This document shows, piece by piece, positions 2,327-31,442 of a stretch of DNA of 31,442 bases. The stretch is from a virus: positions 1 to 31,442 of the IMG/VR virus record IMGVR_UViG_3300036979_000244; one strand, 5' to 3'. A program made the position numbers and the translations under genes. Numbering within the stretch: position 1 is the stretch's first letter; each line of letters opens with the position of its first letter. The notes beneath the pieces are model-generated. The model did not search any database. It was not told the DNA's origin and was given only the letters and a program-made list of their open reading frames with translations.

Positions 2327-2497
2327 ATGGAACCAAAAAAACACCATCGGCCACGATTGACTGATGACGTAGTGCAGGCAATTCGTGCGTTGAAACAAAC
2401 GGGAATGTCGCAAAAAGCAATTTCGTTGCAGTTGAAAATCAGCACCGCTGCCGTGTGCCGAATTTTGAAAGGCAACCGACATGCACAACGTCCTTGA
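2327..2497 (+). CDS. small helix-turn-helix protein
   Basis: The 56-aa basic protein contains one HTH unit: LTDDVVQAIRALKQTGMSQ then AISLQLKISTAAVCRILKG, like the C-terminal HTH of resolvases or sigma region 4. I chose the ATG at 2327. The frame is open back to a TTG at 2225, but that part lies over the conserved C-terminus of the previous gene in another frame. No good SD is visible before 2327, so the exact start is uncertain. It overlaps RusA by 17 bases. A DNA-binding regulator or RusA accessory is plausible. Confidence 0.6.
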   Translation: MEPKKHHRPRLTDDVVQAIRALKQTGMSQKAISLQLKISTAAVCRILKGNRHAQRP

Positions 2498-2909
2498 ATT
2501 TTTTGCTGCTGGGAAACCACGCCCACAAGGCAGCAAGCGATTGGTACGGCTCCGAAACGGTCGAACTGCAATGATTGATGCAGGCAAGGGGTTGAAGGAA
2601 TGGCGACACGCCATTGCTAAACAAGCCAGCAGACAAAAAACAACGTGGGATGGGGATGTGCGGGTCAATATGCTGTTTGTCTTTGCGCGACCGAAAGCCC
2701 ACTTTGACAGCAAGGGAGTGCTACGCGCAACGTCGCCAATTAGGCCAAGAAAACTTGACCTAGACAAGTTGGCGCGTGCCGTCTGTGACGCGCTTTCAGG
2801 TGTTGCGTACCTTGATGACAGACAGGTAGCGATGCTGTGTGCGGAACGCCGATACGTTGATTGGGACGAACCAAAGGAAGGCGTTCGGGTTGTTGTGCAA
2901 CCAATGTAG
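2481..2909 (+). CDS. rusA: RusA-family Holliday junction resolvase
   Basis: The 142-aa protein has the full RusA layout: an N-terminal strand with GKPRPQGSKR (11-20), a beta strand before a PKAHF segment (about 63-75), then the catalytic block LDLDKLARAVCDALSGVAYLDD ending in RQV (92-115). D93, D95 and D113 match the metal-binding acidic residues of the family. RusA dimers cut four-way junctions symmetrically and resolve recombination or replication intermediates before packaging. It is the last gene before the promoter at 2910, and its recombination partner is probably the ERF annealing protein just downstream. Confidence 0.92.
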   Translation: MHNVLEFFAAGKPRPQGSKRLVRLRNGRTAMIDAGKGLKEWRHAIAKQASRQKTTWDGDVRVNMLFVFARPKAHFDSKGVLRATSPIRPRKLDLDKLARAVCDALSGVAYLDDRQVAMLCAERRYVDWDEPKEGVRVVVQPM

Positions 2910-2981: not shown

Positions 2982-3764
2982 ATGCAGACAAGTTCTAGCA
3001 TCGGTGCGCTGATTGCTGCGCTAGCAAAAGCGCAATCAGAAATCAAAAATCCTGCGTTGGACAAATTGCACCCGCATTTCAAGGGATTTCGTTATGCGTC
3101 TCTTGGATCGCACATTGACGCGATCCGCGAGTCGTTTAGCCGTCACGGGCTGGTGATTTCTCAAGGAATCAATAGCGAAGACGTTCGTGTGAGCGTTACC
3201 ACGATGATCGCGCACGCAAGCGGTGAATGGCTATCTAGCACGGTGGGCATGACCCTTGCAGAAAAGGCGACCGCGCAAAACCTTGGCGCGACCGTTACCT
3301 ACCTGCGTAGATACGCGCTCGCGTCAATGTGCCTGTTGACAGGCGACGATGACACCGACGCGGAAGAGGATCGCGTAGCGAAGCAACCACAGCAACGTGC
3401 CGTGGTGCGAGACGTGTTTGATTCAACACCAGTTGCAACGTCAAAGGCGACGTATGACAAACCAAAAAGCGCAAAGGCAACCACAGAAAAAAGCAAATGG
3501 CCGACGAGCGGAACCGACGTTGTAAAACCTGTCAAGGTCGTAAATCGCGATGGTGGTATGTGGGCCGTGCTTTGCAGTCACGCGACCGCTGGAAACGCTT
3601 GGGTGTGCGTCAACCAAGCGTTGATTCGTGGCGTTAGTGAGGGCGACAACATCGAATTGACGTGGCACACCAACGATGCTGGTGTGATCGTGGCATCGGA
3701 AATTGCAGAGCCGATGCAGTTTCGCGATGCAAAGGGTAACCCTGAAATTCCATTCTTCAAATGA
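2982..3764 (+). CDS. erf: ERF-family single-strand annealing protein
   Basis: This is a 260-aa protein. Residues 8-125 match the ERF core: ALIAALAKAQSEIKNPALDK, FRYASLGSHIDAIRESFSRHGL, HASGEWLSS, and NLGATVTYLRRYALASMCL followed by an acidic GDDDTDAEED tail (121-130). ERF proteins form rings on ssDNA and anneal complementary strands, used for circularisation or recombination-dependent replication. The middle (135-180) is Lys/Thr-rich and probably disordered, and residues 175-260 form a separate C-terminal beta-rich region. It has its own promoter, dyad and strong AGGAGG SD. Its stop overlaps the Dcm start by four bases. Confidence 0.88.
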   Translation: MQTSSSIGALIAALAKAQSEIKNPALDKLHPHFKGFRYASLGSHIDAIRESFSRHGLVISQGINSEDVRVSVTTMIAHASGEWLSSTVGMTLAEKATAQNLGATVTYLRRYALASMCLLTGDDDTDAEEDRVAKQPQQRAVVRDVFDSTPVATSKATYDKPKSAKATTEKSKWPTSGTDVVKPVKVVNRDGGMWAVLCSHATAGNAWVCVNQALIRGVSEGDNIELTWHTNDAGVIVASEIAEPMQFRDAKGNPEIPFFK

Positions 3765-5071
3765 CACCACCAAAACCAAAATCACCACAGCCGTTGCGAG
3801 TAGGCTCCATGTTTGCCGGAATCGGCGGATTTGACTTGGGATTTGAGCGAGCCGGATTTGAGGTCGTTTGGTGCATTGAATGGGACAAACACTCACAGGC
3901 CGTTTTGCGTAAGCGATTCCCAAATGTCACCATCTACGGCGACATTCGCGAGGTTGATGCCGCGCAGCTCGCGCCCGTCGATGTCGTGTGTGGTGGATTC
4001 CCGTGCCAAGATCTGTCAGTAGCAGGTAAACGAGCCGGATTGGCCGGCGAAAGGTCAGGGCTGTTCCATGACGCAATTCGACTTGTTCGGAAACTCAATC
4101 CCAAACTTCTCGTACTCGAAAATGTCCCCGGACTGCTGTCAAGTAATCAAGGACTCGACTTCGCCACCGTCCTCCGTGAAGTGGGCGAAGGCTGGAATTG
4201 TGCGGAGGTCGCGTGGCGAGTTTTGGACAGTCGATATTTCGGAGTGGCCCAACGACGGCGTAGAGTGTTTGTTGTCGCAGGTGCTAGAGAAGGTCACGCC
4301 GAACAAATACTTGCTTTCCAAGAAAGCGTGCGCTGGAATCCTGCGCCGAGCGGGAAAGCGCGGGAAGACGTTGCCGGAACAATTGCGGCTCGCTTTGGAA
4401 TCAGTCGCAACAACCCCGAGGAATGCGTAATTGGGGCTATTGATTGCAACATTCCTAAGCAACGCGCACAGAATGCTCAACAGGGTCATTACATCGCCTG
4501 TTTAGTTTCCTCGCAGGGCCAAGAGTGCCACAAGGAAAGCGGCGGCCCTGATAGAGATGAAACAGATTTGTCGGTGGCTCAAGCATTCCGCAAATCAAAG
4601 CGAGCGCAGTCATGCGAAGACGATGAAACATGGGTCGATGACGGACTTGCGAACACGCTCAACGGATTCGACACGGGAGACACGCGAACGACTCATGCGG
4701 TCGCGTACACGGTCGATATGCAGGCGTGCAAGGGCAACGCAAACATTGGCGATGGCAGCGTCAGCCCGACGCTGTGCAAGCCGAGCGGGAACGATGTTCA
4801 CGCCGTCGCGGGTGCGTTCTCATGCAAGGATCACGGAGCCGACGCATCCGCCGTCGCAACCTGCATGGTCGTTCGCCGCCTAACTCCCGTCGAGTGCGAG
4901 CGGCTTCAAGGATTCCCTGATGGTTGGACGCAAATAGGAACTGATGAGAAGCCGACAGCGGATACCCATAGATACAAGCAACTTGGAAACGCCGTCACAG
5001 TCAACGTTGCGGAGTGGATCGCGAAAAGAGCGCATGATGTGCTTGTCAAAGAGGTGAAACATGACCAATGA
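3761..5071 (+). CDS. dcm: DNA (cytosine-5) methyltransferase
   Basis: The 436-aa C5-methyltransferase has its motifs in order: motif I FAGIGGFDLGF (18-28, SAM binding), motif IV GGFPCQDLS with catalytic Cys82, motif VI ENV (120-122), motif VIII QRRRRVFVV (164-172), motif IX RRLTPVECERLQGFPDGW (372-389) and motif X QLGNAV (407-412). The target-recognition region (about 180-370) is long and carries DGLANTLN/DGSVSPTL-like repeats typical of phage enzymes; the target cannot be read from it. No restriction endonuclease neighbours it, so its likely role is protecting phage DNA from host restriction. Codon use shifts toward G/C-ending codons in the 3' part. Confidence 0.95.
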   Translation: MTPPKPKSPQPLRVGSMFAGIGGFDLGFERAGFEVVWCIEWDKHSQAVLRKRFPNVTIYGDIREVDAAQLAPVDVVCGGFPCQDLSVAGKRAGLAGERSGLFHDAIRLVRKLNPKLLVLENVPGLLSSNQGLDFATVLREVGEGWNCAEVAWRVLDSRYFGVAQRRRRVFVVAGAREGHAEQILAFQESVRWNPAPSGKAREDVAGTIAARFGISRNNPEECVIGAIDCNIPKQRAQNAQQGHYIACLVSSQGQECHKESGGPDRDETDLSVAQAFRKSKRAQSCEDDETWVDDGLANTLNGFDTGDTRTTHAVAYTVDMQACKGNANIGDGSVSPTLCKPSGNDVHAVAGAFSCKDHGADASAVATCMVVRRLTPVECERLQGFPDGWTQIGTDEKPTADTHRYKQLGNAVTVNVAEWIAKRAHDVLVKEVKHDQ

Positions 5072-7371: not shown

Positions 7372-7799
7372 GCGAAAACCCACAATCAACCCCTTTGCCG
7401 GGGGATATGGGGGAATTACCGGAAGCGCGAAAGCGTTGGTATCAACGGCAACATCTGCGAGTGCTGGAACAGGCGGTCTATCAGGGTTGGCAAATCCCTG
7501 AAGCAGCGTTTGCCACCATTCCCATTGATCTACTCGCAATCGTGCAGGATGACGCTGCATCATCTCGCGACAGAATCAGAGCGACGGAGGCACTGGCGCA
7601 CCTCGCACAACAGCGAATGGACGCAGCGGTTGCGTATGACCGTATCAAACGGTTGGATTCGGGAATGGCAACGGATCGGCACGAAGTCCTGAATAGCCTC
7701 ACAGACCAACAAATTGCAGCGGTGGCAGATTCAATAATCCTGTTGCCACAGCCCGAACCGCAATGCAAAAAACCAAAGGCCAAACGAAAACGCAATTGA
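7368..7799 (+). CDS. terS: putative terminase small subunit
   Basis: The 143-aa protein sits directly upstream of, and overlaps by 37 bases, the large terminase. It is helical with an acidic-basic mix (ASSRDRIRATEALAHLAQQRMDAAVAYDRIKRL) and a strongly basic C-terminus (KKPKAKRKRN). There is no clear HTH signature, so the call rests on position, size and helix content. TerS forms a ring that recognises the packaging site and feeds DNA to TerL. The gene start overlaps the previous stop as ATGA. Confidence 0.65.
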   Translation: MSENPQSTPLPGDMGELPEARKRWYQRQHLRVLEQAVYQGWQIPEAAFATIPIDLLAIVQDDAASSRDRIRATEALAHLAQQRMDAAVAYDRIKRLDSGMATDRHEVLNSLTDQQIAAVADSIILLPQPEPQCKKPKAKRKRN

Positions 7800-9235
7800 C
7801 CGCTGCACAGGCAGTTGCACAGGCACGAGAAAACCCTGTGGCATTTCTCGCGCTCGCGCTGGGATTCAAACCGTCTGAACTGCAACGCGAACTACTGCAT
7901 CACGCATTGACACATGCGGAGTGGTACGCGGAACTTCCACGTGGTCACGCGAAAACGTCAACGCTGTGCTATCTGACGGCGTGGTGGTTGGGCATTCGAC
8001 CCGACACCCGATTCAAAATCGTGAGTCAAAACGACGAGGCGGCAGGCGCAACGACACGATTCATTCGCGATATTGTGCGCGGTGCAGCGTTTCAAGCGAC
8101 GTTCCCAAACGTCAAACTCAAGCCCGGCGAGGACACCATTACGTCGTGGAGTATTACCGCGCCGGGGTTGTTACCTCGCAGCAAAGACCCTAGCGTGCAG
8201 GGCAGCGGTGTGTTTGGTCGTACGGGTGGCCGAGCCGACGTAATTTGGTTTGACGATATCTGCGATTTGCGTAACTCCGTGTTACAGCCCACGTTACGCG
8301 CACAAGTCAAAGAAGCCATTGCAAACATTTGGCTTCCGATGCTCGACCCAGCAGCAACGCACAATAGTCGCGTGTGGAAAACGGCAACCCCCTTCCATAC
8401 CGACGATGCAACAGCCGATTGGCGGCGACTACACGAACGCACAAACAGTTTGCTCAGGCGACCGTGTGCGGGGGAAAACTCCCCGTGGCCGGACGTATTC
8501 ACGCCGGAAATTCTCGCAGCGCGGCGACACGAAATGGGAGCGATGGCGTACGCAAGAGCGTACGAGCTTGTCCCGTTGTCGAGCGACCTGTTGGTATTCC
8601 GTCCTGAATGGCTAGCCTACTACAAACGGGAAACCATTCCGCTGAACACGCGCACGGTGGCAGCGGTGGATTGGGGATACGGGCGAAAGGCTCAGGATCG
8701 CGACGATCCCGATTACAGCGTGTGCATCGTTGGTGAAATTGACAGTCAGCGACGTTTGTACTTGACGGACGTTCTGCGGGTACGCGAATCATTTCCGACG
8801 TTTGCAGCAATGGCAGCAAGCCTGTTGGAGCGTCGCGGGGTTTCGGTTGTGCTGGCGGAGGCTAATGGGCCACAACGCGGTATCTTTGATCAATTCGCGC
8901 AATTGACACGCCAACCAATGATTTCGGTGGAGAGAACAACCGACAAGCACATGCGAGCGGCGGGAGCGCAACCATTCGTACAGGGGATGAAACTGCATTT
9001 TCCGACCGATCATGCGGGTAATGTCTTGACCGCTTTTCAGCCTGTGATTGACGAAATGCTCGCGTTTCCGGCTGGCGCACACGATGACAGCGTGGATTGC
9101 GTTGTGGATTTGTGCAGCGAGGCTGTTCGCGGATCGTTGTCATCCAACGATTTGCGCGTCTCGCGAATTGACAAACCTGATGCGATCAGTCGAATGTTTG
9201 GAGCAAACAAAGCCAAACGTCCGTTCTTTGCGTGA
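7763..9235 (+). CDS. terL: terminase large subunit
   Basis: The 490-aa packaging motor and nuclease has Walker A PRGHAKTS (59-66), Walker B VIWFDD (160-165), a TATPFH coupling motif near 208-212, and an RNase H-like nuclease with acidic residues in AVDWGYG (D303), VLAEA (E366) and AHDDSVD (D441/D442). It pumps DNA into the prohead using ATP and cuts genome units. Length is normal. The start lies within the TerS end. Confidence 0.95.
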   Translation: MQKTKGQTKTQLTAAQAVAQARENPVAFLALALGFKPSELQRELLHHALTHAEWYAELPRGHAKTSTLCYLTAWWLGIRPDTRFKIVSQNDEAAGATTRFIRDIVRGAAFQATFPNVKLKPGEDTITSWSITAPGLLPRSKDPSVQGSGVFGRTGGRADVIWFDDICDLRNSVLQPTLRAQVKEAIANIWLPMLDPAATHNSRVWKTATPFHTDDATADWRRLHERTNSLLRRPCAGENSPWPDVFTPEILAARRHEMGAMAYARAYELVPLSSDLLVFRPEWLAYYKRETIPLNTRTVAAVDWGYGRKAQDRDDPDYSVCIVGEIDSQRRLYLTDVLRVRESFPTFAAMAASLLERRGVSVVLAEANGPQRGIFDQFAQLTRQPMISVERTTDKHMRAAGAQPFVQGMKLHFPTDHAGNVLTAFQPVIDEMLAFPAGAHDDSVDCVVDLCSEAVRGSLSSNDLRVSRIDKPDAISRMFGANKAKRPFFA

Positions 9236-9247
9236 TACGATCCGCGC

Positions 9248-12200
9248 ATGTGCGGAAACCGAGCGACATTTTCTAGAACCGAAACGAAGTATTTCGCAGG
9301 TGGAACCCAAGTTGAATCGGGGCAATTGCGCGAAATAACGGAAATGCAGTTTGCGCGTCTATTTCCGAATCGAAAAGACGGATACACCGCACAGGGCGGT
9401 GCAAAGCGAATGCCGCTAGATGAACGCGCATTGTGGCCCGAAGCACGTTGGCAACAGAGTTACACTGAACAGGCTCAAGCAGCAATCGAATCAACAAAGT
9501 CGTGGTCAGCAAAAACCGCGAATGAGGTGCGTGCAGCAGGTGGTGTTGATGCGTGGGTGCGACTACAGATGACAAATCTGTATTCCGATCATCCGTCAAT
9601 CGGCATCCCAAAACAACGATTCCTTGTGATGAATTCGTCGCCACCGCAGGCTATCGACCGCGTGGTGAAATGGGAGAAGACCGAAACACCAACATCGTGT
9701 GGCGCACGGTGTCGCATGGCGCGTGGCCCAATGTGCGATTGCGTTTGTGAAGGGAAGAATCACGGCGCAGGCGCAACGATGTCACGGTCGCGATTTGATC
9801 GTCAAACAGACCTAAAGAAGACGAAGCAACTAGTTTCCGATGCCTCTCAAACAATCGAAAGGTTGAAGGACAAACTGAAGCGGCAGCGTGCGTTAGATTT
9901 AGATGGCGATAGTTCCTCATCCACGCAAAGAACGGAAGACACTCTTGACCTCTTGTTGACCCAATACCGCGCTGTTGCAGCATTAGTAAACGAAAACGCT
10001 GCGTGGCAGGAAATCGTGACCGCAGTTGAAAAACTGCGGTCTACGCTCCAAGTCGCTCAAAGCGAGTCAGCGCGGTTTTCGCGAGGGTTCAAAGGTTTTG
10101 TTGACCCGTGGGCGGCTATGTCGCCTGATGATCGACGCGAGGCAGGAAAACTGCAAATAGCGGCGTTGAAGGCAATGCCGAGTTCGCCGCGTCAGAAGGA
10201 GATTCGCGTCAAGTTGAACGCGATTCTCGCCAAGTACGGACTTGATAAGTCGCCTGAAGAAAGAAACATGAAATCGGCCCGTAGGGCTGCAAGGAAAACA
10301 ACGATGGCAAATCGAACGAATGACTCATTCACGGTGCAACTGCGATGGAATGGAATGGGTGCGCCACAGCATCGTGTTACTTTCAAGACACTCGCGCAGG
10401 CAGAAAAGGAGGCCGAACGGCTTCATGCTCTGTATGGAAGTCTTGGGAATCCTGAGTTCCCGACGATGAAGGGAATTGTGGAAATTGAGGTTTCCGATGC
10501 AAATCAGCCTTGGAAAAATCGAACCGTCCGATGGTTTGCATCCCGCCCCGGCGCGAAGGCAACAATGGCAAATGAACTTTTCCGAGTCCGCATTGGAAAC
10601 GCCACGGTTTCCACAACAGAGTTCATGCAGTATGCGCGGCGATTTATTCCGAATGTCAGCCGCAACGATTTTCTTCCCGACATGGTTGAAAAAGTCAATC
10701 AAGCGTTGGCCGCAAGGGGTGATTCAATTCGTGTGTCTATCCTTATGAAAGGACAAGATTTCTCCCGCTACAGCGCGAAGGCGGCGTTTGGACAAAAGGA
10801 TGCGTACACGACTAGCCTCAATAAACCAGTTACCGTAGCAAATTGCAACAGGATGATGAACATTGCATCTGAAGCGATTCAATATGCAAAATCCGTTGGA
10901 GACAACGAGCTGCTTGATCTTGCGGAAGAGGTAGGAATTGAATGCCAAGCGATAAAGTCTCGTGCGTCCCGCCCCGGCGCGAAGGCGGCGTTTGCTGCAA
11001 ACGATGTTGATTTGTGGAACTTGTTGGCTAAAAGCGATGTTGTGCTTGCGCGACAAAACGCTAACGAGCTTGCCACGTTGAAAAAATACGCGCAAAAAGC
11101 CTTACGAATGCCGAACTTTACGCCACCTGCGATGGCGCAGCATGGGCCGAGTTTGCATCAAATCGCAACGGACACGCTTGCAGACATCCAAGCATTTGAG
11201 CAGGCGGCGTATCGCTATCGCAATCGCGCACCGTGGGCAGGATCTAGGGCAAAAGCGGCATTCGACGCATTCGATCCGTTCACCGCGCCAGCCAAACCCG
11301 CTAGTTGGGACGGCAAGCGAATCAATCTCAACAACAAGATGTACAAGGTCGAACCTAACGGGGACGTGTACGACCTGTACGACATGAACACAAACAAGAA
11401 GGCCAAATCAATGACCGCAGAGCAGTTGTATCGTGCGTGGGAGCAGGGACGTATCAAAACGATCTACAAACGCTCCGGCGCGAAGGCGTCGTTTGATAAA
11501 AACACCATCGTGGAATCGTGGACGAGTCCAAAGGGGACACGATACGAGGCTGGCCTATGGCAGTCTTACGGAGGTACATACCAGCCATATGTCACCGCGA
11601 CCTACAGCGACGGTGGAGAACAGCTGATGACCCTGAATGAAAAATCCTACGCAACGGAAAGCGGGGCGCGAAAGCGACTCGCGGCAGTTGTGTCCCGCAT
11701 GAAAAGTAACTACTCCCGCGTTGGCGCAAAGGCAAAGTTTGAAATCAAGGTTGGTGATCGTGTGCTAGGTAGCCTTGCTGTTCAAGGCGGTGCTGGCGTG
11801 ATGGGTACGGTATTCAAGATTGAAGACGGCTACGCGCATATCCAAGCAGATCCAAGCGTGGACGATGAGCGTTGGGGCCGCAAGACCTACAAAGTACCTT
11901 TGCGGCTTGTTACGCGGATGTCTCGCTCCGGCGCAGCGGCGGCGTTCGGCAACGAGGGCATTCAAAAGGGCTTGTCACGTTTGCTGAAGGAAACGGGATT
12001 CAAAGCGATGTCGCAGGACATTCTGAAGGGTGGATCAGACGCGGAAACGCTTCGTAAGTACATCCGCGTGTTGAAGTCAAAGATGTCACCGTTGCATGGC
12101 GATGAACGTGCCGCACAACTTTTGGACACGCTAGATCGACAACTGATGTCTCGTTCCGGCGCGAAGGAGAAGTTCGGACAGGTAACGCAGTTACTTGGAT

Positions 12201-13141
12201 ACATTGAATCGCAGGCACATGATCAGCGAGAACTTGCAAAATCGAATCTTCGCAAGCTTGCAGAGAACATCGGGCGGATTGATCACACCGACGCGGAGTG
12301 GAAACATTTCGTGCGCGTAGCGCATTCGCTGGGGTTCACCGACTCACAAATCGCAGGGTTTTCTCGTCGTGGCGCAAAGGAGGCGTTCGCAGAGCCGCAG
12401 TCATTCAGAGATTTGGTTGCCTATGCGCGATTCCATTTCAATCTCAATTTCTATCAGGCACAGGATGTTGCAGGTCGTGCCGGAATCATGTTGAAGATGC
12501 ACCCAAACAAATATCCGGTGGAGATGGTGATGCAGGAAGCATTGAAACGATCCAATGCGGCATTGACCGCAGAACAAAAAGCCCCTGATTACAGAGTGGG
12601 AAGCAACATCAAAGGAAACCCAACTATGCGTGATAGTTCGCTAGTGATGTCCCGCTCTAGCGCGAAGGCAAGTGTTGCAGAGGAACTGCACAAGGCATCA
12701 ACGGAAGGCCGATTGATGAAGCAAAATGTTGCCGGAACGAAAACCACGGCATTCAACCGCATTGGTGAAGAGGAAGCATTTGGATTAGGCGCGGCATCGG
12801 AGTCCGATGACCCGTCGAAGGACGAGAATTTGATTGCGCTTGCGAACCGCGTAGGTCGCGAACACACCGTCAATCTGTTCAAGTGCTGGAGCGAAGGCAA
12901 GGCAAGTATGCAACGAGCTGCGACGATGTTCAGTGCAAACATGTACTACTCCGTTCAGGCAACCGTTGGAAACGATGCTGTAGGAGAACGAACTGCCCAA
13001 ACGGTTGAAGAGGCAAAACGATTTGCATACAGCATGTTGGATGCCACGAAACAAAATGCCCGAGGGAAAACTGTAGTTGTGGACGTAATTCCTGTAAAAA
13101 ATTACGAACCGCAAGCATCGGTGCTGACATTGCGCGGATGA
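9248..13141 (+). CDS. 1297-aa modular protein with repeated SRxGAKAxF linkers (putative polyprotein)
   Basis: This is the largest gene, between TerL and portal. Residues 1-177 include a Cys/His cluster, C151-x3-C155-x7-C163-x-C-x-C167 then NHG (171-173), likely zinc-binding. From residue 178 about 14 copies of (F/Y/M)SRxGAKAxF recur at roughly 178, 277, 343, 430, 505, 574, 664, 740, 822, 891, 967, 1038, 1134 and 1169, spaced 35-99 residues apart. The segments between them differ from each other: a coiled coil (about 187-276), a VGDRVLG...YAHIQ SH3/KOW-like domain (about 833-885), several helical bundles and a C-terminal domain (1180-1297). I recognise no whole-length homologue. Its place among head genes suggests an internal head or ejection protein, possibly cut into mini-proteins at the linkers. 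The start at 9248 has no strong SD. Confidence 0.85.
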   Translation: MCGNRATFSRTETKYFAGGTQVESGQLREITEMQFARLFPNRKDGYTAQGGAKRMPLDERALWPEARWQQSYTEQAQAAIESTKSWSAKTANEVRAAGGVDAWVRLQMTNLYSDHPSIGIPKQRFLVMNSSPPQAIDRVVKWEKTETPTSCGARCRMARGPMCDCVCEGKNHGAGATMSRSRFDRQTDLKKTKQLVSDASQTIERLKDKLKRQRALDLDGDSSSSTQRTEDTLDLLLTQYRAVAALVNENAAWQEIVTAVEKLRSTLQVAQSESARFSRGFKGFVDPWAAMSPDDRREAGKLQIAALKAMPSSPRQKEIRVKLNAILAKYGLDKSPEERNMKSARRAARKTTMANRTNDSFTVQLRWNGMGAPQHRVTFKTLAQAEKEAERLHALYGSLGNPEFPTMKGIVEIEVSDANQPWKNRTVRWFASRPGAKATMANELFRVRIGNATVSTTEFMQYARRFIPNVSRNDFLPDMVEKVNQALAARGDSIRVSILMKGQDFSRYSAKAAFGQKDAYTTSLNKPVTVANCNRMMNIASEAIQYAKSVGDNELLDLAEEVGIECQAIKSRASRPGAKAAFAANDVDLWNLLAKSDVVLARQNANELATLKKYAQKALRMPNFTPPAMAQHGPSLHQIATDTLADIQAFEQAAYRYRNRAPWAGSRAKAAFDAFDPFTAPAKPASWDGKRINLNNKMYKVEPNGDVYDLYDMNTNKKAKSMTAEQLYRAWEQGRIKTIYKRSGAKASFDKNTIVESWTSPKGTRYEAGLWQSYGGTYQPYVTATYSDGGEQLMTLNEKSYATESGARKRLAAVVSRMKSNYSRVGAKAKFEIKVGDRVLGSLAVQGGAGVMGTVFKIEDGYAHIQADPSVDDERWGRKTYKVPLRLVTRMSRSGAAAAFGNEGIQKGLSRLLKETGFKAMSQDILKGGSDAETLRKYIRVLKSKMSPLHGDERAAQLLDTLDRQLMSRSGAKEKFGQVTQLLGYIESQAHDQRELAKSNLRKLAENIGRIDHTDAEWKHFVRVAHSLGFTDSQIAGFSRRGAKEAFAEPQSFRDLVAYARFHFNLNFYQAQDVAGRAGIMLKMHPNKYPVEMVMQEALKRSNAALTAEQKAPDYRVGSNIKGNPTMRDSSLVMSRSSAKASVAEELHKASTEGRLMKQNVAGTKTTAFNRIGEEEAFGLGAASESDDPSKDENLIALANRVGREHTVNLFKCWSEGKASMQRAATMFSANMYYSVQATVGNDAVGERTAQTVEEAKRFAYSMLDATKQNARGKTVVVDVIPVKNYEPQASVLTLRG
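9779..12787 (+). repeat. dispersed in-frame linker repeat, about 14 copies
   Basis: The DNA of the linkers is conserved as well as the peptide: TCCCGCCCCGGCGCGAAGGC is identical at 10541-10560 and 10967-10986, and GGCGCGAAGGC-like cores recur near 11477, 12160 and 12652. Degenerate copies (near 9779, 10076, 10274, 12752) keep only part of the motif. In two copies the GAAGG or AAGGA word sits 5-9 bases before an in-frame ATG encoding MAN, which could act as internal start sites. Confidence 0.8.
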
Positions 13142-13326: not shown

Positions 13327-14808
13327 ATGCCGGACTCTCTGCCGTCTACAAATCCGCTGACGAATGGGCTACCAGTTGCGGAGCGTCCGCGAGAACCGCT
13401 ACCCGCTCCTATTCAACGCGGAATCACGAGTCCGCTGGCAACCGCAGTAGAATTGCAGCGGTCGTTCTTCACGACCGCAGACAAGATGCTGCGGAATAGC
13501 AGTATCGCGTACAGGTTGAACCCGCAATATCAACAGATGATGCGGTCAGACGCAGACATCGAAGGGGTGTTGCGTAGTTTGCAGGTCACATTGGCAAGTC
13601 TTGAATGGGCAATCATTTGCACAGATGAAACCGACGAACGCGGCAAAGCGTTAGCAGAACAGGTTGGGAAAATTTTCGACGCAATGCCGCGACGAAGTGA
13701 TTTTGTTCGGTCGATGCATGAGGCCGTGTGGTACGGCAATGCTGCCTGCAACCTTGTGTATCGCAAGGATGAACGAACAAAGGTAGCCATTCAGGAGTGG
13801 TATCCCTTTCATCCGGACACCCTCGCATACGACCAACGTGGCAATCTCGCAATGCGCGTCGGCGCACAGTACAGCAGCGATGGGCCATCAGAACAGAACA
13901 TTGGTTTTGACAGCCGAGTTCACATTTTTACCGCTGAAGAGCGCAAGGCAATCGTGTTGCACCGCGTGTTTATCAACGCGCCCGATTTCAACGATCCCAA
14001 TGCGACAGAATCCATCTATCGTGGCGTAGGAGCGCGAGACGTTTGTTGGTTTATGTGGCTCGCCAAGCAAGAGATTTTGCAGGACGCGATCACTTACGCG
14101 GAACGGTACGCGATGGGAATTCGCGTTGGGTATTACCCATTGGGTCAGGACGAAGGCCGCACGATGATGGAAAACGTGCTGGCGAATTTGACCAACGACA
14201 ACAGCGTTTTGTTGCCTCAAAGCGGAACCGAAAAGATCTACGACATTGACATCAAAGAGCCAAACGCGGGTCGCGCTCAGGTGTTTATGGAATTGGTCAA
14301 TTGGTTCAGCGGAAAAATCAAGGAGGCAATCCTTGGGCAATCGCTTTCAAGCGAAACGGGCAGCACAGGGTTAGGTTCAGGTGTCGCGAATCTCCACGCC
14401 GATACCCTTTCACGCATCATTCGATATCACGCTGACGCGCTTGCCGACAGCATGACGTGCGATTTTGTGCGAGTAGTAGCCAAAATGCTTGGCGCAACGG
14501 ATGCAGAATGCAGCACCCTGCGATTCCAATTCGCACCTGAGCGACCTGATCCCAAGGAAAGGTTGGAAGCTATCCGTGCGTTCGTTGACATGGGCGGCAA
14601 GGTCGCAGAACGCGAAGTGCGTGACCTGTTGGGACTTTCGCAACCAACTGCGGATGATGCGGTGCTAGGTGGTAGCACCGGACAGGGCGGTGGCGTCGCA
14701 GATACCGTCGCGGGTTGGTTGGAACAGGGTCAGCAGGCAGTTCCGGCTGAAGGTGTGTCCCCGAAGGACGGTGCGCCAAAAACATTTTCTAGGCGGTCGT
14801 GGTGGTAA
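13327..14808 (+). CDS. portal protein, DUF935 / Mu gp29-like
   Basis: The 493-aa protein matches the Mu-type portal family: an N-terminal DADIEGVLRSLQVTLASLEW region (about 75-97), a middle with QEILQDAITYAERYAMGIRVGYY, and KIKEAILGQSLSSETGSTGLG (about 338-358) followed by NLHADTLSRIIRYHADALADSM, the characteristic ILGQ-L and H-D region. The portal dodecamer is the DNA entry and exit ring at one capsid vertex and docks TerL. The C-terminal 50 residues are Gly/Ala-rich and likely disordered. The stop overlaps the MuF start as TAATG. Confidence 0.88.
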   Translation: MPDSLPSTNPLTNGLPVAERPREPLPAPIQRGITSPLATAVELQRSFFTTADKMLRNSSIAYRLNPQYQQMMRSDADIEGVLRSLQVTLASLEWAIICTDETDERGKALAEQVGKIFDAMPRRSDFVRSMHEAVWYGNAACNLVYRKDERTKVAIQEWYPFHPDTLAYDQRGNLAMRVGAQYSSDGPSEQNIGFDSRVHIFTAEERKAIVLHRVFINAPDFNDPNATESIYRGVGARDVCWFMWLAKQEILQDAITYAERYAMGIRVGYYPLGQDEGRTMMENVLANLTNDNSVLLPQSGTEKIYDIDIKEPNAGRAQVFMELVNWFSGKIKEAILGQSLSSETGSTGLGSGVANLHADTLSRIIRYHADALADSMTCDFVRVVAKMLGATDAECSTLRFQFAPERPDPKERLEAIRAFVDMGGKVAEREVRDLLGLSQPTADDAVLGGSTGQGGGVADTVAGWLEQGQQAVPAEGVSPKDGAPKTFSRRSWW

Positions 14809-15923: not shown

Positions 15924-17167
15924 TACGATTTCAAGCAATGACACAGCCATCTCACAGAGTCACCGAAAATGCAGACAAGGTCGTAATTCACGACCTAGAA
16001 GTGTTTTCTGCGTACGATCCTGCTATCGACGGCGATCACGATGCGGAACTAAAGAGTTTCGACAACGACCGTGTTGAGAGCATTGTGGAAAGCACCAAAC
16101 GGTACATGGAAAAGGGTTCGTTTCCGCGTCTAGTCGTGATGCATGAACGCGATGGTAATGAACCAAAATCCTGCATTGGGCGTTTCACAAAGATTCATTA
16201 TCAGGAACGCAATGGTGTGGGATACATCGTTGGCGATTGCGAAGTAGAACGCGCTGCATTCGACAAGCTGTTGGCTACCAATGCGTTTCCGCGTCGATCT
16301 GCGGAAATTTGGCAAGATCACAACCATCTATCAGAGGTAGCGTTGCTTGGTCGCGAAACACCGCGCAGGCCGCTGCCCGATACGCACTTTTCCCGTAAGG
16401 GAAATCGCGTCACGTTTTCCCGATCACTCCGCTTTGACATGGGAACTGTCGGTGGCGGTCTTTCAACGTTTGTTCCCGATACGAAGGACATCAATATGGC
16501 AGACGATCTGCGAGAAGAGATGTCATCAATGAAGGCCGCGATGGAAGAACTTCGCAACGAGTTCAAGAAGCGGTTCGCAGAGGATGACGATGAAACCATC
16601 GACATGAGCGCGTATGAGCGCGATGACGATGACAAGGAAACAATGGAAGCCGATGACATGCTTCAACAGCAATTCGCTGAGGAGATGCCTGAGGAAATTC
16701 ACATTGACATTGGATCTCACGACCAAGTTGACGAAGACGAAGACGAGGAAGAGGACAGCGCAGATGCTGTGTTCCCTGCTTCGCGTCTTGGTTCTTCGGA
16801 TATGTTTGCGATGCGTCGTGAAAACACGCGCATGGCGCGAGAACTCAAATCTCTCCGAACGCAACTGTCTCGCGAAAAGTTTTCGCGGGAACTTGATGCG
16901 ATGGAGCAGGACGGCTACCGCATTCCTGCGGAACGTCGTGACGCGCTTCTAGGGGAACTCCTCGCGAGTCGCAACCCAACTGAATTGATCGACACTTGGC
17001 GCGATCTATTTGCGCGTGATCCGATGGGTGTTCGCATTGACATGAGCCGTGCAACAATTCCTCAGAGCAGTCAAATTCACGCTTCGGATGTAAGCGAACT
17101 TGTTCGCGAGTTTGCTGGCAAGCCCGAAGAATTCCGTAAGGCAATCAATTCGCGAATCAAGCGATAA
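15920..17167 (+). CDS. prohead protease-scaffold fusion
   Basis: This is a 415-aa protein. Residues 20-155 (FSAYDPAIDGDHDAEL, FPRLVVMHERDG, FPRRSAEIWQDHNHLSEVALLG) look like the maturation protease part found with Mu-type heads. Residues 194-415 are an acidic, coiled-coil scaffold (a run of Asp/Glu near 265-277, then SLRTQLSREKFSRELDAM). The boundary holds two notable peptides: FSRKGNRVTF (157-166), which fits the linker motif of the 1297-aa protein, and VGGGLSTFVPDTKDI (177-191), which matches the N-terminus of the major capsid protein. Catalytic residues are not certain; H112-like or Ser residues cannot be assigned without structure modelling. It overlaps MuF as ATGA. Confidence 0.8.
   Translation: MIRFQAMTQPSHRVTENADKVVIHDLEVFSAYDPAIDGDHDAELKSFDNDRVESIVESTKRYMEKGSFPRLVVMHERDGNEPKSCIGRFTKIHYQERNGVGYIVGDCEVERAAFDKLLATNAFPRRSAEIWQDHNHLSEVALLGRETPRRPLPDTHFSRKGNRVTFSRSLRFDMGTVGGGLSTFVPDTKDINMADDLREEMSSMKAAMEELRNEFKKRFAEDDDETIDMSAYERDDDDKETMEADDMLQQQFAEEMPEEIHIDIGSHDQVDEDEDEEEDSADAVFPASRLGSSDMFAMRRENTRMARELKSLRTQLSREKFSRELDAMEQDGYRIPAERRDALLGELLASRNPTELIDTWRDLFARDPMGVRIDMSRATIPQSSQIHASDVSELVREFAGKPEEFRKAINSRIKR
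16496..17167 (+). CDS. scaffold protein from an internal in-frame start
   Basis: The in-frame ATG at 16496 (residue 193 of the fusion, MADDLREEM) is preceded by GAAGGA at 16483-16488 with 7-base spacing, a better SD than many genes here have. It would make a 223-aa stand-alone scaffold, as lambda Nu3 is made from inside C. Start is inferred; the amino-acid boundary (end of linker, start of helix-rich scaffold) agrees. Confidence 0.55.
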   Translation: MADDLREEMSSMKAAMEELRNEFKKRFAEDDDETIDMSAYERDDDDKETMEADDMLQQQFAEEMPEEIHIDIGSHDQVDEDEDEEEDSADAVFPASRLGSSDMFAMRRENTRMARELKSLRTQLSREKFSRELDAMEQDGYRIPAERRDALLGELLASRNPTELIDTWRDLFARDPMGVRIDMSRATIPQSSQIHASDVSELVREFAGKPEEFRKAINSRIKR

Positions 17168-30215: not shown

Positions 30216-30244
30216 TCGTATTTTTTGACGCAAGGATTCCATGA
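30212..30244 (+). CDS. 10-aa bridging ORF (MIVFFDARIP)
   Basis: An ATG overlaps the stop of the HTH gene (ATGA) and its TGA overlaps the ATG of the cysteine-rich gene (ATGA), so ribosomes could pass from one to the other with no gap. Same 33-base length as the leftward leader at 313-345. It may exist only to couple translation. Confidence 0.35.
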   Translation: MIVFFDARIP

Positions 30245-31442
30245 GTGCTACCACGGTCGCTGCGTGTTGCTGTGATGTTTCTGTGCGGTATTACGCGCTG
30301 AAATGTCCTGACCTGATGCCGCAATGTTGTCCGTACAACGACTGCGACAACGCACCAAATCGCATTGATATGTGCGAAGCGTATTTGCGTCTGTGGGGCA
30401 TAACAACACCACCTGATCCAACGAAGTGCTACATATTTTCGTACAAGTGCTGTTTCTACTACCTGTATTCGACTGATCCAGGGCCATGCCCGTATCCGAA
30501 TAGCCCGTGGCCGACCAACGTTGGAAAACTGGTGATGGTTTTCAATCGCGGTGGGGTGTCGTGTTGCCGCCCAAATCCGTATGACACAACGTTGATGCCG
30601 CCCGGCTCAATGGGCTTGATCACAATTCCGGGTTGCGGCCCTGTGGTTGTCAATCCTGATCCAATCGAATTCCCATGCGTGGAATTGATCGCAGACTGCT
30701 ACGAGCTTTGCGACCAGTACGGAACGGTCAAAGGAAAGTCCAACAGAATTACCTCACGGCTCTCAATGTGCGTGAATGTTCCTGGCGTACCGCCGGACGT
30801 TCGATGTAATCACGGGCCAAGCGATCAAACTATTGAGGTGGTTGTAAGAACGGATACGTACATTGGAAACTGCGAACCGTGCAAGTTCCTGAACAACGTA
30901 CCTGTTCCAAATCCAGGCGGCGGGTACGACTGTCTCCCAAGCCCGTTTTCGTGTCCTAATCAGGTCGAACAAGAATTCATCGAACTCGCCAACTGCCCTA
31001 ATTGCTGGGCGTTCGTTGCGCTTGATTGCTGCGGGGGTTCAGATCCTTGCACAAGCGACCCGCTTGCATGTAGTAACGCAAACGTGTTGGACTACCTGCA
31101 AAGTTACAAGGTCACGACGTGTTACAGCGTTCAGGATTGTTCGCTAGAGGGTACGGAATTTCAGGTCGAGGATTTGTTGCGCGTGTATTTTGACAGGTGC
31201 ATTCCTATTGCAGAGGGCATCAATCCGCTTGACTCAGCAGCGTTAGATACATGGGTGCGAACGCAATTCCTCACGTTTGGATCGGGGTCGTATCAAACGT
31301 GTTGGGGTGCGATGAGTACCTACGATGTCAACGTCTGCGGTTTGACAGTTCGGATGTTGTCGGGAAACGCGACACGACTTGCGGAAAAGATCAACAACCG
31401 TATCGGTGCAAGCGTTCAAGTTGAGGTTTTGAATAACCCGTG
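30241..31442 (+). CDS. cysteine-rich protein of at least 400 aa, truncated by the window end
   Basis: The open frame starts at ATG 30241 (AGGA upstream at 7-8 bases) and has no stop to the end of the window. My count gives about 35 Cys in 400 residues, many as CC or CxxC (ACCCD, QCCPYNDC, KCCFYY, SCCRP, NCEPC, NCPNC, DCCGG), with many Pro and Asn. It has no signal peptide or membrane helix at the start. If the DNA is circular it ends at base 43. Possible roles are a disulfide-locked or zinc-rich tail-tip/virion surface protein, but I recognise no family. Confidence 0.75.
   Translation, partial: MSATTVAACCCDVSVRYYALKCPDLMPQCCPYNDCDNAPNRIDMCEAYLRLWGITTPPDPTKCYIFSYKCCFYYLYSTDPGPCPYPNSPWPTNVGKLVMVFNRGGVSCCRPNPYDTTLMPPGSMGLITIPGCGPVVVNPDPIEFPCVELIADCYELCDQYGTVKGKSNRITSRLSMCVNVPGVPPDVRCNHGPSDQTIEVVVRTDTYIGNCEPCKFLNNVPVPNPGGGYDCLPSPFSCPNQVEQEFIELANCPNCWAFVALDCCGGSDPCTSDPLACSNANVLDYLQSYKVTTCYSVQDCSLEGTEFQVEDLLRVYFDRCIPIAEGINPLDSAALDTWVRTQFLTFGSGSYQTCWGAMSTYDVNVCGLTVRMLSGNATRLAEKINNRIGASVQVEVLNNP

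Follow-up and report, generated by a model that had tools for sequence, protein, structure and literature searches.

How does a single phage gene come to hold a dozen or so unlike protein segments, and what is the role of the short peptide that recurs between them? The question is raised by the virus record IMGVR_UViG_3300036979_000244 of IMG/VR, which was analysed over its entire 31,442 bases (the window). On its + strand, from 9248 to 13141, a single ATG-started, stop-free open reading frame (ORF) of 1297 amino acids (aa) lies between the genes for the terminase large subunit (TerL; PHROG 38) and a portal of the Mu type (Portal_Mu). A sequence-only reading had described this ORF as a chain of small modules between TerL and portal, joined by about 14 SRxGAKAxF linkers spaced 35-99 residues apart. 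The chain is as described: nine strong copies (weight matrix score ≥7, at aa 432, 506, 574, 741, 823, 892, 968, 1039, and 1135) and about five degenerate ones are found at roughly the spacing given, and the 20-mer TCCCGCCCCGGCGCGAAGGC, said to be identical at two places, is present at 10541 and at 10967. Our preferred reading, which we hold to be reasonably probable though far from certain on the sequences at hand, is that of an ORF-internal cassette array encoding a prohead-internal polyprotein, in which the linker is both recombination seam and cleavage site.

Related chain ORFs occur on more than 100 IMG/VR contigs belonging to one uncultured phage clade. An initial search returned two relatives. 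In one (L001), the N-terminal ~180 aa are 74% identical to the window chain and the start MCGxRxTFSRTETK is kept, beyond which different modules follow with the same linkers; the other (L002) retains several window modules and has an additional module between two linkers. A portal search extended the set to 80 loci, most with a linker-bearing ORF in the TerL-portal or the MuF-protease-scaffold interval. Outside IMG/VR, tblastn against 50,697 phage records found no relative of the chain, portal, or protease-scaffold protein, the best matches of the chain being at chance level (E 0.4 and worse), and the portal search in genome contigs gave no match. Some members of the clade (L032, L048, L052, and others) carry a second, separate chain gene, with the head MSxxRKxIAxRLG, between MuF and protease-scaffold.

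Throughout these relatives the linker follows the consensus [F/M/A/S]-S-R-P-G-A-K-A-[K/A/R]-[F/M]-[A/G]. Its weight matrix gives 381 matches scoring ≥7 in 95 chain ORFs, none in shuffled sequence, and none in 112,523 residues of TerL, portal, MuF, major capsid protein (MCP), and small head protein, which rules out chance repeats. Over all loci, strict linkers number 208 on the coding strand and zero on the opposite strand. The linker occupies about 27-30 nucleotides (nt) and has a 21-nt core, TCCCGCCCCGGCGCGAAGGCG, that is conserved as DNA. Pairs of linkers within one ORF agree in their codons at S, R, G, A, and A in 71-91% of cases, where codon use in the modules predicts 22-30%, and at K in 91% against a predicted 76%. 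Third codon positions hold 0.6-1.6 bits in the core, nearly as much as the other positions, and about 0.1 outside it, conservation falling to background immediately beyond the core. In a wider linker set TCC makes up 91% of the Ser codons, CCC 97% of the Pro codons, and GGC 95% of the Gly codons, a preference that persists whether portals are 70% or more, 50-70%, or less than 50% identical to that of the window. Codon bias does not account for the fixed codons, as other codons are used by the modules and by a linker-like site in the protease-scaffold protein of the same genomes, whose Ser codons are TCG 20, TCC 3, AGC 3, and TCA 1. Linker variants are also partly uniform per genome, with SRTG in L012, L037, and L057 and SRAG in L005; identity over 27 nt is 0.76 within chains and 0.70 between them, as if linkers were homogenised.

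At least 119 IMG/VR stretches contain the 21-mer without mismatch. Chain linkers are present in every IMG/VR locus examined, and core genes of the clade in every one except a 1.5-kb piece from the end of a contig that the set already includes; the portals are 38-83% identical to that of the window. A scan of 257 Gb of bacterial genomes gave five matches, four of them single and without core genes, and the fifth (L198, OMJK01000020.1) a 6.5-kb phage contig of the same clade. L198 is binned with a Nitrospiraceae metagenome-assembled genome, a possible host hint that is too weak to name a host. The 21-mer can serve as a bar code for finding further chain loci.

Close relatives, here those with portals 85-99.9% identical in DNA, reveal where chains differ. 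Among 134 distinct ends of homologous DNA blocks inside their chains, 52% fall inside a 30-nt linker and 75% inside one or at most 10 nt away, against 8.7% and 14.6% of random points. One pair (L055 and L056) differs by a clean module insertion, and in two others (L033/L041 and L047/L049) the same modules stand in swapped order. Even phages with portal proteins only 64-67% identical have modules in common at 99-100% DNA identity over about 200 nt, and the blocks common to such distant phages begin and end within linkers. The window itself contains seven linker-to-linker blocks, with partners that include L010, L079, L075, and L002. Because codons are near-fixed, blocks end in linkers, and near-identical modules occur in distant phages, the linker is best understood as an in-frame recombination seam. 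Comparison of the genomes shows that modules enter and leave arrays, change position, and travel between distant members of the clade, with exchange points inside the linkers. Of the roles that the sequence-only reading had offered for the linker, the domain-shuffling hinge with recombination at the DNA level is thus strongly supported, as is its suggestion that modules could be added or lost by recombination. Homologues of the kind it held to speak against it, with the motif absent and the modules still in order, were not seen; the relatives present the opposite, the motif being kept while the modules change.

The modules are small, with a median of 68 aa from linker to linker. Once redundancy is removed, 70 ORFs from 60 loci contain 397 modules in 151 clusters (named F0, F1, and so on), of which 69 are common to at least two phages and 80 were found once; boundaries and clusters are automatic and the counts therefore approximate, cluster F1, for instance, merging a 32-50 aa tail with another module. 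The modules of the window fall into different clusters, in agreement with the claim that the segments between linkers are unalike. Arrays usually open with F4 (the Cys/His module) or F0 (the KHGKGG module), and the same short tail ends many arrays, while interior modules occur in many positions beside many different neighbours, their order changing continually from phage to phage. Agrobacterium phage Milano encodes one of the modules, F13, as a gene of its own (94 aa). Whole-protein searches of the chain (Pfam, PHROG, PADLOC, PDB sequences) yielded no functional assignment: Pfam gave no match in the window chain and only sub-threshold matches in eight relatives, and PADLOC gave none. In a model of two modules each is folded separately, and confidence drops at the linker between them. 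Module F5 resembles a small barrel of the Tudor/KOW type (Z 8.0) and module F2 a WGR domain (Z about 7, weak), both likenesses being weak fold hints.

What might drive the exchange? The window encodes an ERF annealing recombinase and the Holliday-junction endonuclease RusA, and ERF is found in 20 of the 27 long records. Phage Erf and Red-type proteins recombine short, diverged segments, and the minimum for Redβ is 23-27 bp (PMC3945230), relative to which the linker is just long enough. We infer that the ERF of the phage acts in exchange at the linkers. A site-specific recombinase was considered and rejected: in the same 27 records, which are phage records only and leave room for a host enzyme acting in trans, there is no tyrosine recombinase, and serine recombinases appear only as three broken, sub-threshold traces.

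The fate of the protein is approached through its neighbours. The N-terminal domain of the protease-scaffold protein has an invariant His75 and Ser127, and its model (mean predicted local confidence, pLDDT, 72; good for residues 1-137) has its best match in gp21, the capsid assembly protease of T4 (Z 7.6 over 116 residues), followed by many herpesvirus proteases. This protein carries the motif [S/T/A]RxG-x4-[F/M] twice, once behind the modelled domain and once behind an acidic stretch. The pattern [SAT]RxG-x4-[FM] is found 75 times in protease-scaffold proteins and not at all in 115,443 residues of TerL, portal, MuF, MCP, and small head protein. In L064 (9226-11172), L073, L074, and L081 the F0 module precedes the protease-scaffold in an in-frame fusion, in L074 with a further module between the two; in the cultured Vibrio phage 1.122, F0 begins a protein of 661 aa encoded in the corresponding position of the head cluster. 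The gp21-like model, the motif in the scaffold, and the F0 fusions together suggest that the chain product is prohead-internal and meets the predicted protease; the chain protein is probably packed in the virus head, and is perhaps cut into pieces there. In support of cutting, position 8 of the linker appears to be held at the protein level, since it is F or M in about 80% of sites (in a search free of pattern bias at that position), Leu is almost absent, and Phe is encoded by both TTT and TTC. Protease cleavage, as the sequence-only reading had it, thus gains a neighbouring protease-like model with a shared motif, and stands as plausible.

Taken together, the gene would be an in-frame array in which each cassette is a small module bounded by a linker with the core TCCCGCCCCGGCGCGAAGGCG. 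The short linker homologies would be annealed by the ERF-type recombinase of the phage and modules thereby exchanged. The product would be built into the prohead, where the linker peptide SRxGxxxx[F/M] may be a site for the gp21/herpes-type prohead protease of the phage, and up to about 14 small proteins may be cleaved from the chain within the head. These could, speculatively, be internal or ejected proteins that aid host takeover or counter host defences, a role that would explain the rapid turnover of the module set. More tentatively, as a view to which we give slightly less than even weight, the chains may amount to a clade-shared, fast-exchanging library of effector-like proteins, the 21-nt seam being a recombination handle and part of a protease site; any captured cassette would then automatically be packed, released, and delivered. 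Should the linker double as a protease site, a single short sequence would provide for shuffling as well as processing, and would hint at the way in which phages bring many different proteins into their heads. The module pool (69 shared families and about 80 singletons) offers unexplored candidate anti-defence and host-takeover proteins, and a seam present in dozens of copies within one gene makes the exchange idea directly testable.

Several observations weigh against this account. ERF is missing from 7 of the 27 long records (which may be fragments or have another recombinase, not searched for), several relatives have no strict linker, the linkers of the window are less uniform than the clade consensus, and a clade member was not found among cultured phages. 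On the side of cleavage, a Z of 7.6 lies below the caution line of 8 for the tool, in a model with a mean pLDDT of 72, and Foldseek with the same model returned nothing below E 0.001, gp21 coming first only in the second aligner, although the leading matches there are consistent with one another. The scaffold sites match the linker in SRxG-x4-F only, without GAKA, and the first of them drifts in distant relatives (FTKHGSKVVF). Moreover, the DNA conservation of the linker does not require cleavage.

In one alternative, array and seam are the same and the protein stays uncut, as a beads-on-a-string virion or host-takeover protein whose linker is a short hinge, its peptide fixed because its DNA is fixed. 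Such a protein agrees with conservation of the core DNA beyond protein need and with modules that may fold singly, model confidence dipping at the linker, and the N4 virion RNA polymerase is a multi-domain phage protein packaged uncut (PMC5512222). It agrees less well with a position 8 kept as F/M through free Phe codons and almost without Leu, or with a related motif at the domain borders of the protease-scaffold that has no copies in other head proteins, and we regard an uncut chain as rather unlikely. It is very unlikely that the linker is a dedicated site-specific recombination or mobile-element site, served in integron-like fashion by an unrecognised enzyme: its very high DNA conservation across a deep clade and its single orientation would suit such a site, but the 27 records hold no tyrosine recombinase and no serine recombinase above the cut-off, linkers vary as homologous exchange allows, and breakpoints are scattered within them.

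Maintenance for translation, through an internal ribosome start (AAGG, then ATG) or a pause for module folding or separate synthesis, is suggested by the M-type linkers, GAAGGCGAAGATG, which resemble a ribosome site ahead of a start codon, and by the Met that begins some modules. About half of the linkers, however, have Phe and hence lack a start codon, one linker of the window is clearly of the M type, the preferred linker codons are common ones (Ser TCC excepted), and the 5' part of the core would be left unexplained, so that this explanation is highly improbable. An artefact, by which metagenome assemblers joined unrelated pieces at 21-27 nt repeats, could draw on exact repeats that are short and common to phages possibly co-occurring. 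Its probability is negligible, since the same array, spanning up to ten linkers, was recovered at 99.7-100% identity from 24 pairs of different metagenomes, many window linkers are unlike one another, and the reading frame is preserved throughout.

How far is such an organisation known? Integrons are arrays of exchangeable cassettes, each bounded by a common site and accompanied by an integrase. The chain shares with them the exchange of cassettes at a common site and differs in that no integrase was found in the 27 records and that its cassettes are domains in one frame, not genes. The polyvalent proteins of phages and conjugative elements are long and multi-domain, often encoded near head genes and thought to be packaged (PMC5512222). 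With 12-14 segments in one polypeptide between TerL and portal, the chain lies within their range of 2-15 domains near head genes, and it resembles them in variable domain order and perhaps in their likely role in host conflict. However, polyvalent proteins have recognisable enzymes and profiled domains and no described common linker (PMC5512222), whereas the chain modules are all small, largely without known function, and share one DNA-conserved seam. A long ORF with recurring, alike junction peptides is also what viral polyproteins present. In phage boundary (linker) sequences, short conserved DNA at module borders permits homologous exchange (PMC3029335), and breakpoints in short conserved DNA are what the chains display; the known cases lie between genes, whereas the chain has a translated border that recurs up to about a dozen times in one ORF and is clade-wide. 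The T4 internal proteins IPI-III are small, variable, put into the prohead, cut by gp21, and ejected, and IPI counters restriction (PMC9026906). The proposed prohead proteins cut by a possibly related protease are comparable by likeness only, and each T4 protein comes from its own gene with a targeting peptide, where the chain would string them together. In CdiA-CT/Rhs proteins a conserved junction (VENN motif) likewise marks the place where variable modules differ, with one junction and one variable end per protein as opposed to many junctions in the chain (PMC3150448). Ongoing shuffling of protein fragments among phages is also described by Smug et al. (2023), who name no shared linker, the word "linker" appearing nowhere in the main text (PMC10684548). 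The linker peptide itself was not found in the literature searched, which covered few subscription papers. The parts of the mechanism (annealing recombinase, prohead protease, packaged proteins) are already known; the organisation, a translated, repeated, clade-wide seam inside one gene, is new in that it was not found in the systems compared.

Table 1. Positions in the window of the chain ORF, its linkers and modules, and associated genes.
Feature	Position	Strand	Basis or remark
Chain ORF, 1297 aa: head module, ~13 small modules, ~14 linkers	9248..13141	+	ORF call, matrix, homologous arrays
Head module F4 (aa 1-177), Cys/His cluster CxxxCxxxxGxxCxCxCxGxxHG	9248..9778	+	N-terminal in relatives too; weak PHROG 6842 match
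Degenerate linker MSRSRF (aa 178-183)	9779..9796	+	homology with L009 and L005 stops here
Degenerate linker SRGFKGF (aa 278-284)	10079..10099	+	
Degenerate linker SARRAARKTTM (aa 343-353)	10274..10306	+	
Linker SRPGAKATM, DNA TCCCGCCCCGGCGCGAAGGCA...	10541..10567	+	matrix
Module, part of cluster F1, FRVRIGNATVSTTEF...	10568..10762	+	block shared with L010, 10568-10783, linker to linker
Linker SRYSAKAAF	10763..10789	+	matrix
Module F11	10790..10966	+	block shared with L079, 10760-10971
Linker SRPGAKAAF, DNA core = clade consensus 21-mer	10967..10993	+	matrix, DNA comparison
Module F12	10994..11242	+	block shared with L075, 10964-11237
Degenerate linker SRAKAAF (aa 666-672)	11243..11263	+	
Module F24	11264..11467	+	block shared with L002, 11234-11484
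Linker KRSGAKASF	11468..11494	+	L002 has one additional whole module here
Module F2	11495..11713	+	model WGR-like (Z about 7, weak)
Linker SRVGAKAKF	11714..11740	+	matrix
Module F5, Tudor/KOW-like small barrel in model (Z 8.0)	11741..11920	+	block shared with L010, 11714-11950
Linker SRSGAAAAF	11921..11947	+	matrix
Module F15	11948..12148	+	clustering
Linker SRSGAKEKF	12149..12175	+	matrix
Module F6	12176..12361	+	block shared with L079, 12166-12391
Linker SRRGAKEAF	12362..12388	+	matrix
Module F34	12389..12649	+	clustering
Linker SRSSAKASV	12650..12676	+	matrix
Degenerate linker NRIGEEEAF (aa 1170)	12755..12781	+	SRPGAKDAF in the L001 homologue
Terminal modules: F3 and C-terminal module	12782..13138	+	in relatives also apart and interior to array
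Protease-scaffold ORF, 415 aa	15920..17167	+	N-terminal domain model gp21/herpesvirus-protease-like; invariant His75, Ser127
Linker-like site 1, SRKGNRVTF, after protease domain	16391..16417	+	
Linker-like site 2, SRLGSSDMF, after acidic stretch; protein conserved, codons free	16781..16807	+	
ERF single-strand annealing recombinase, candidate exchange engine	2982..3764	+	PF04404, E 8e-20
RusA Holliday-junction endonuclease	2481..2909	+	E 6.5e-15
Terminase large subunit	7763..9235	+	PHROG 38
Portal, Mu type	13327..14808	+	Portal_Mu

Some further features of the window were observed. A very Cys-rich ORF without a Pfam match occupies 30241-31440 and is open at the record end. Beside ERF and RusA, at 3761-5071, lies a gene for a C5-cytosine DNA methylase (PF00145, E 7e-67); CCGG and GCGC are both present in the linker core. 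The portals of the window, L001, and L002 end in FSRRSWW, a C-terminus whose start (FSRxx) resembles the linker.

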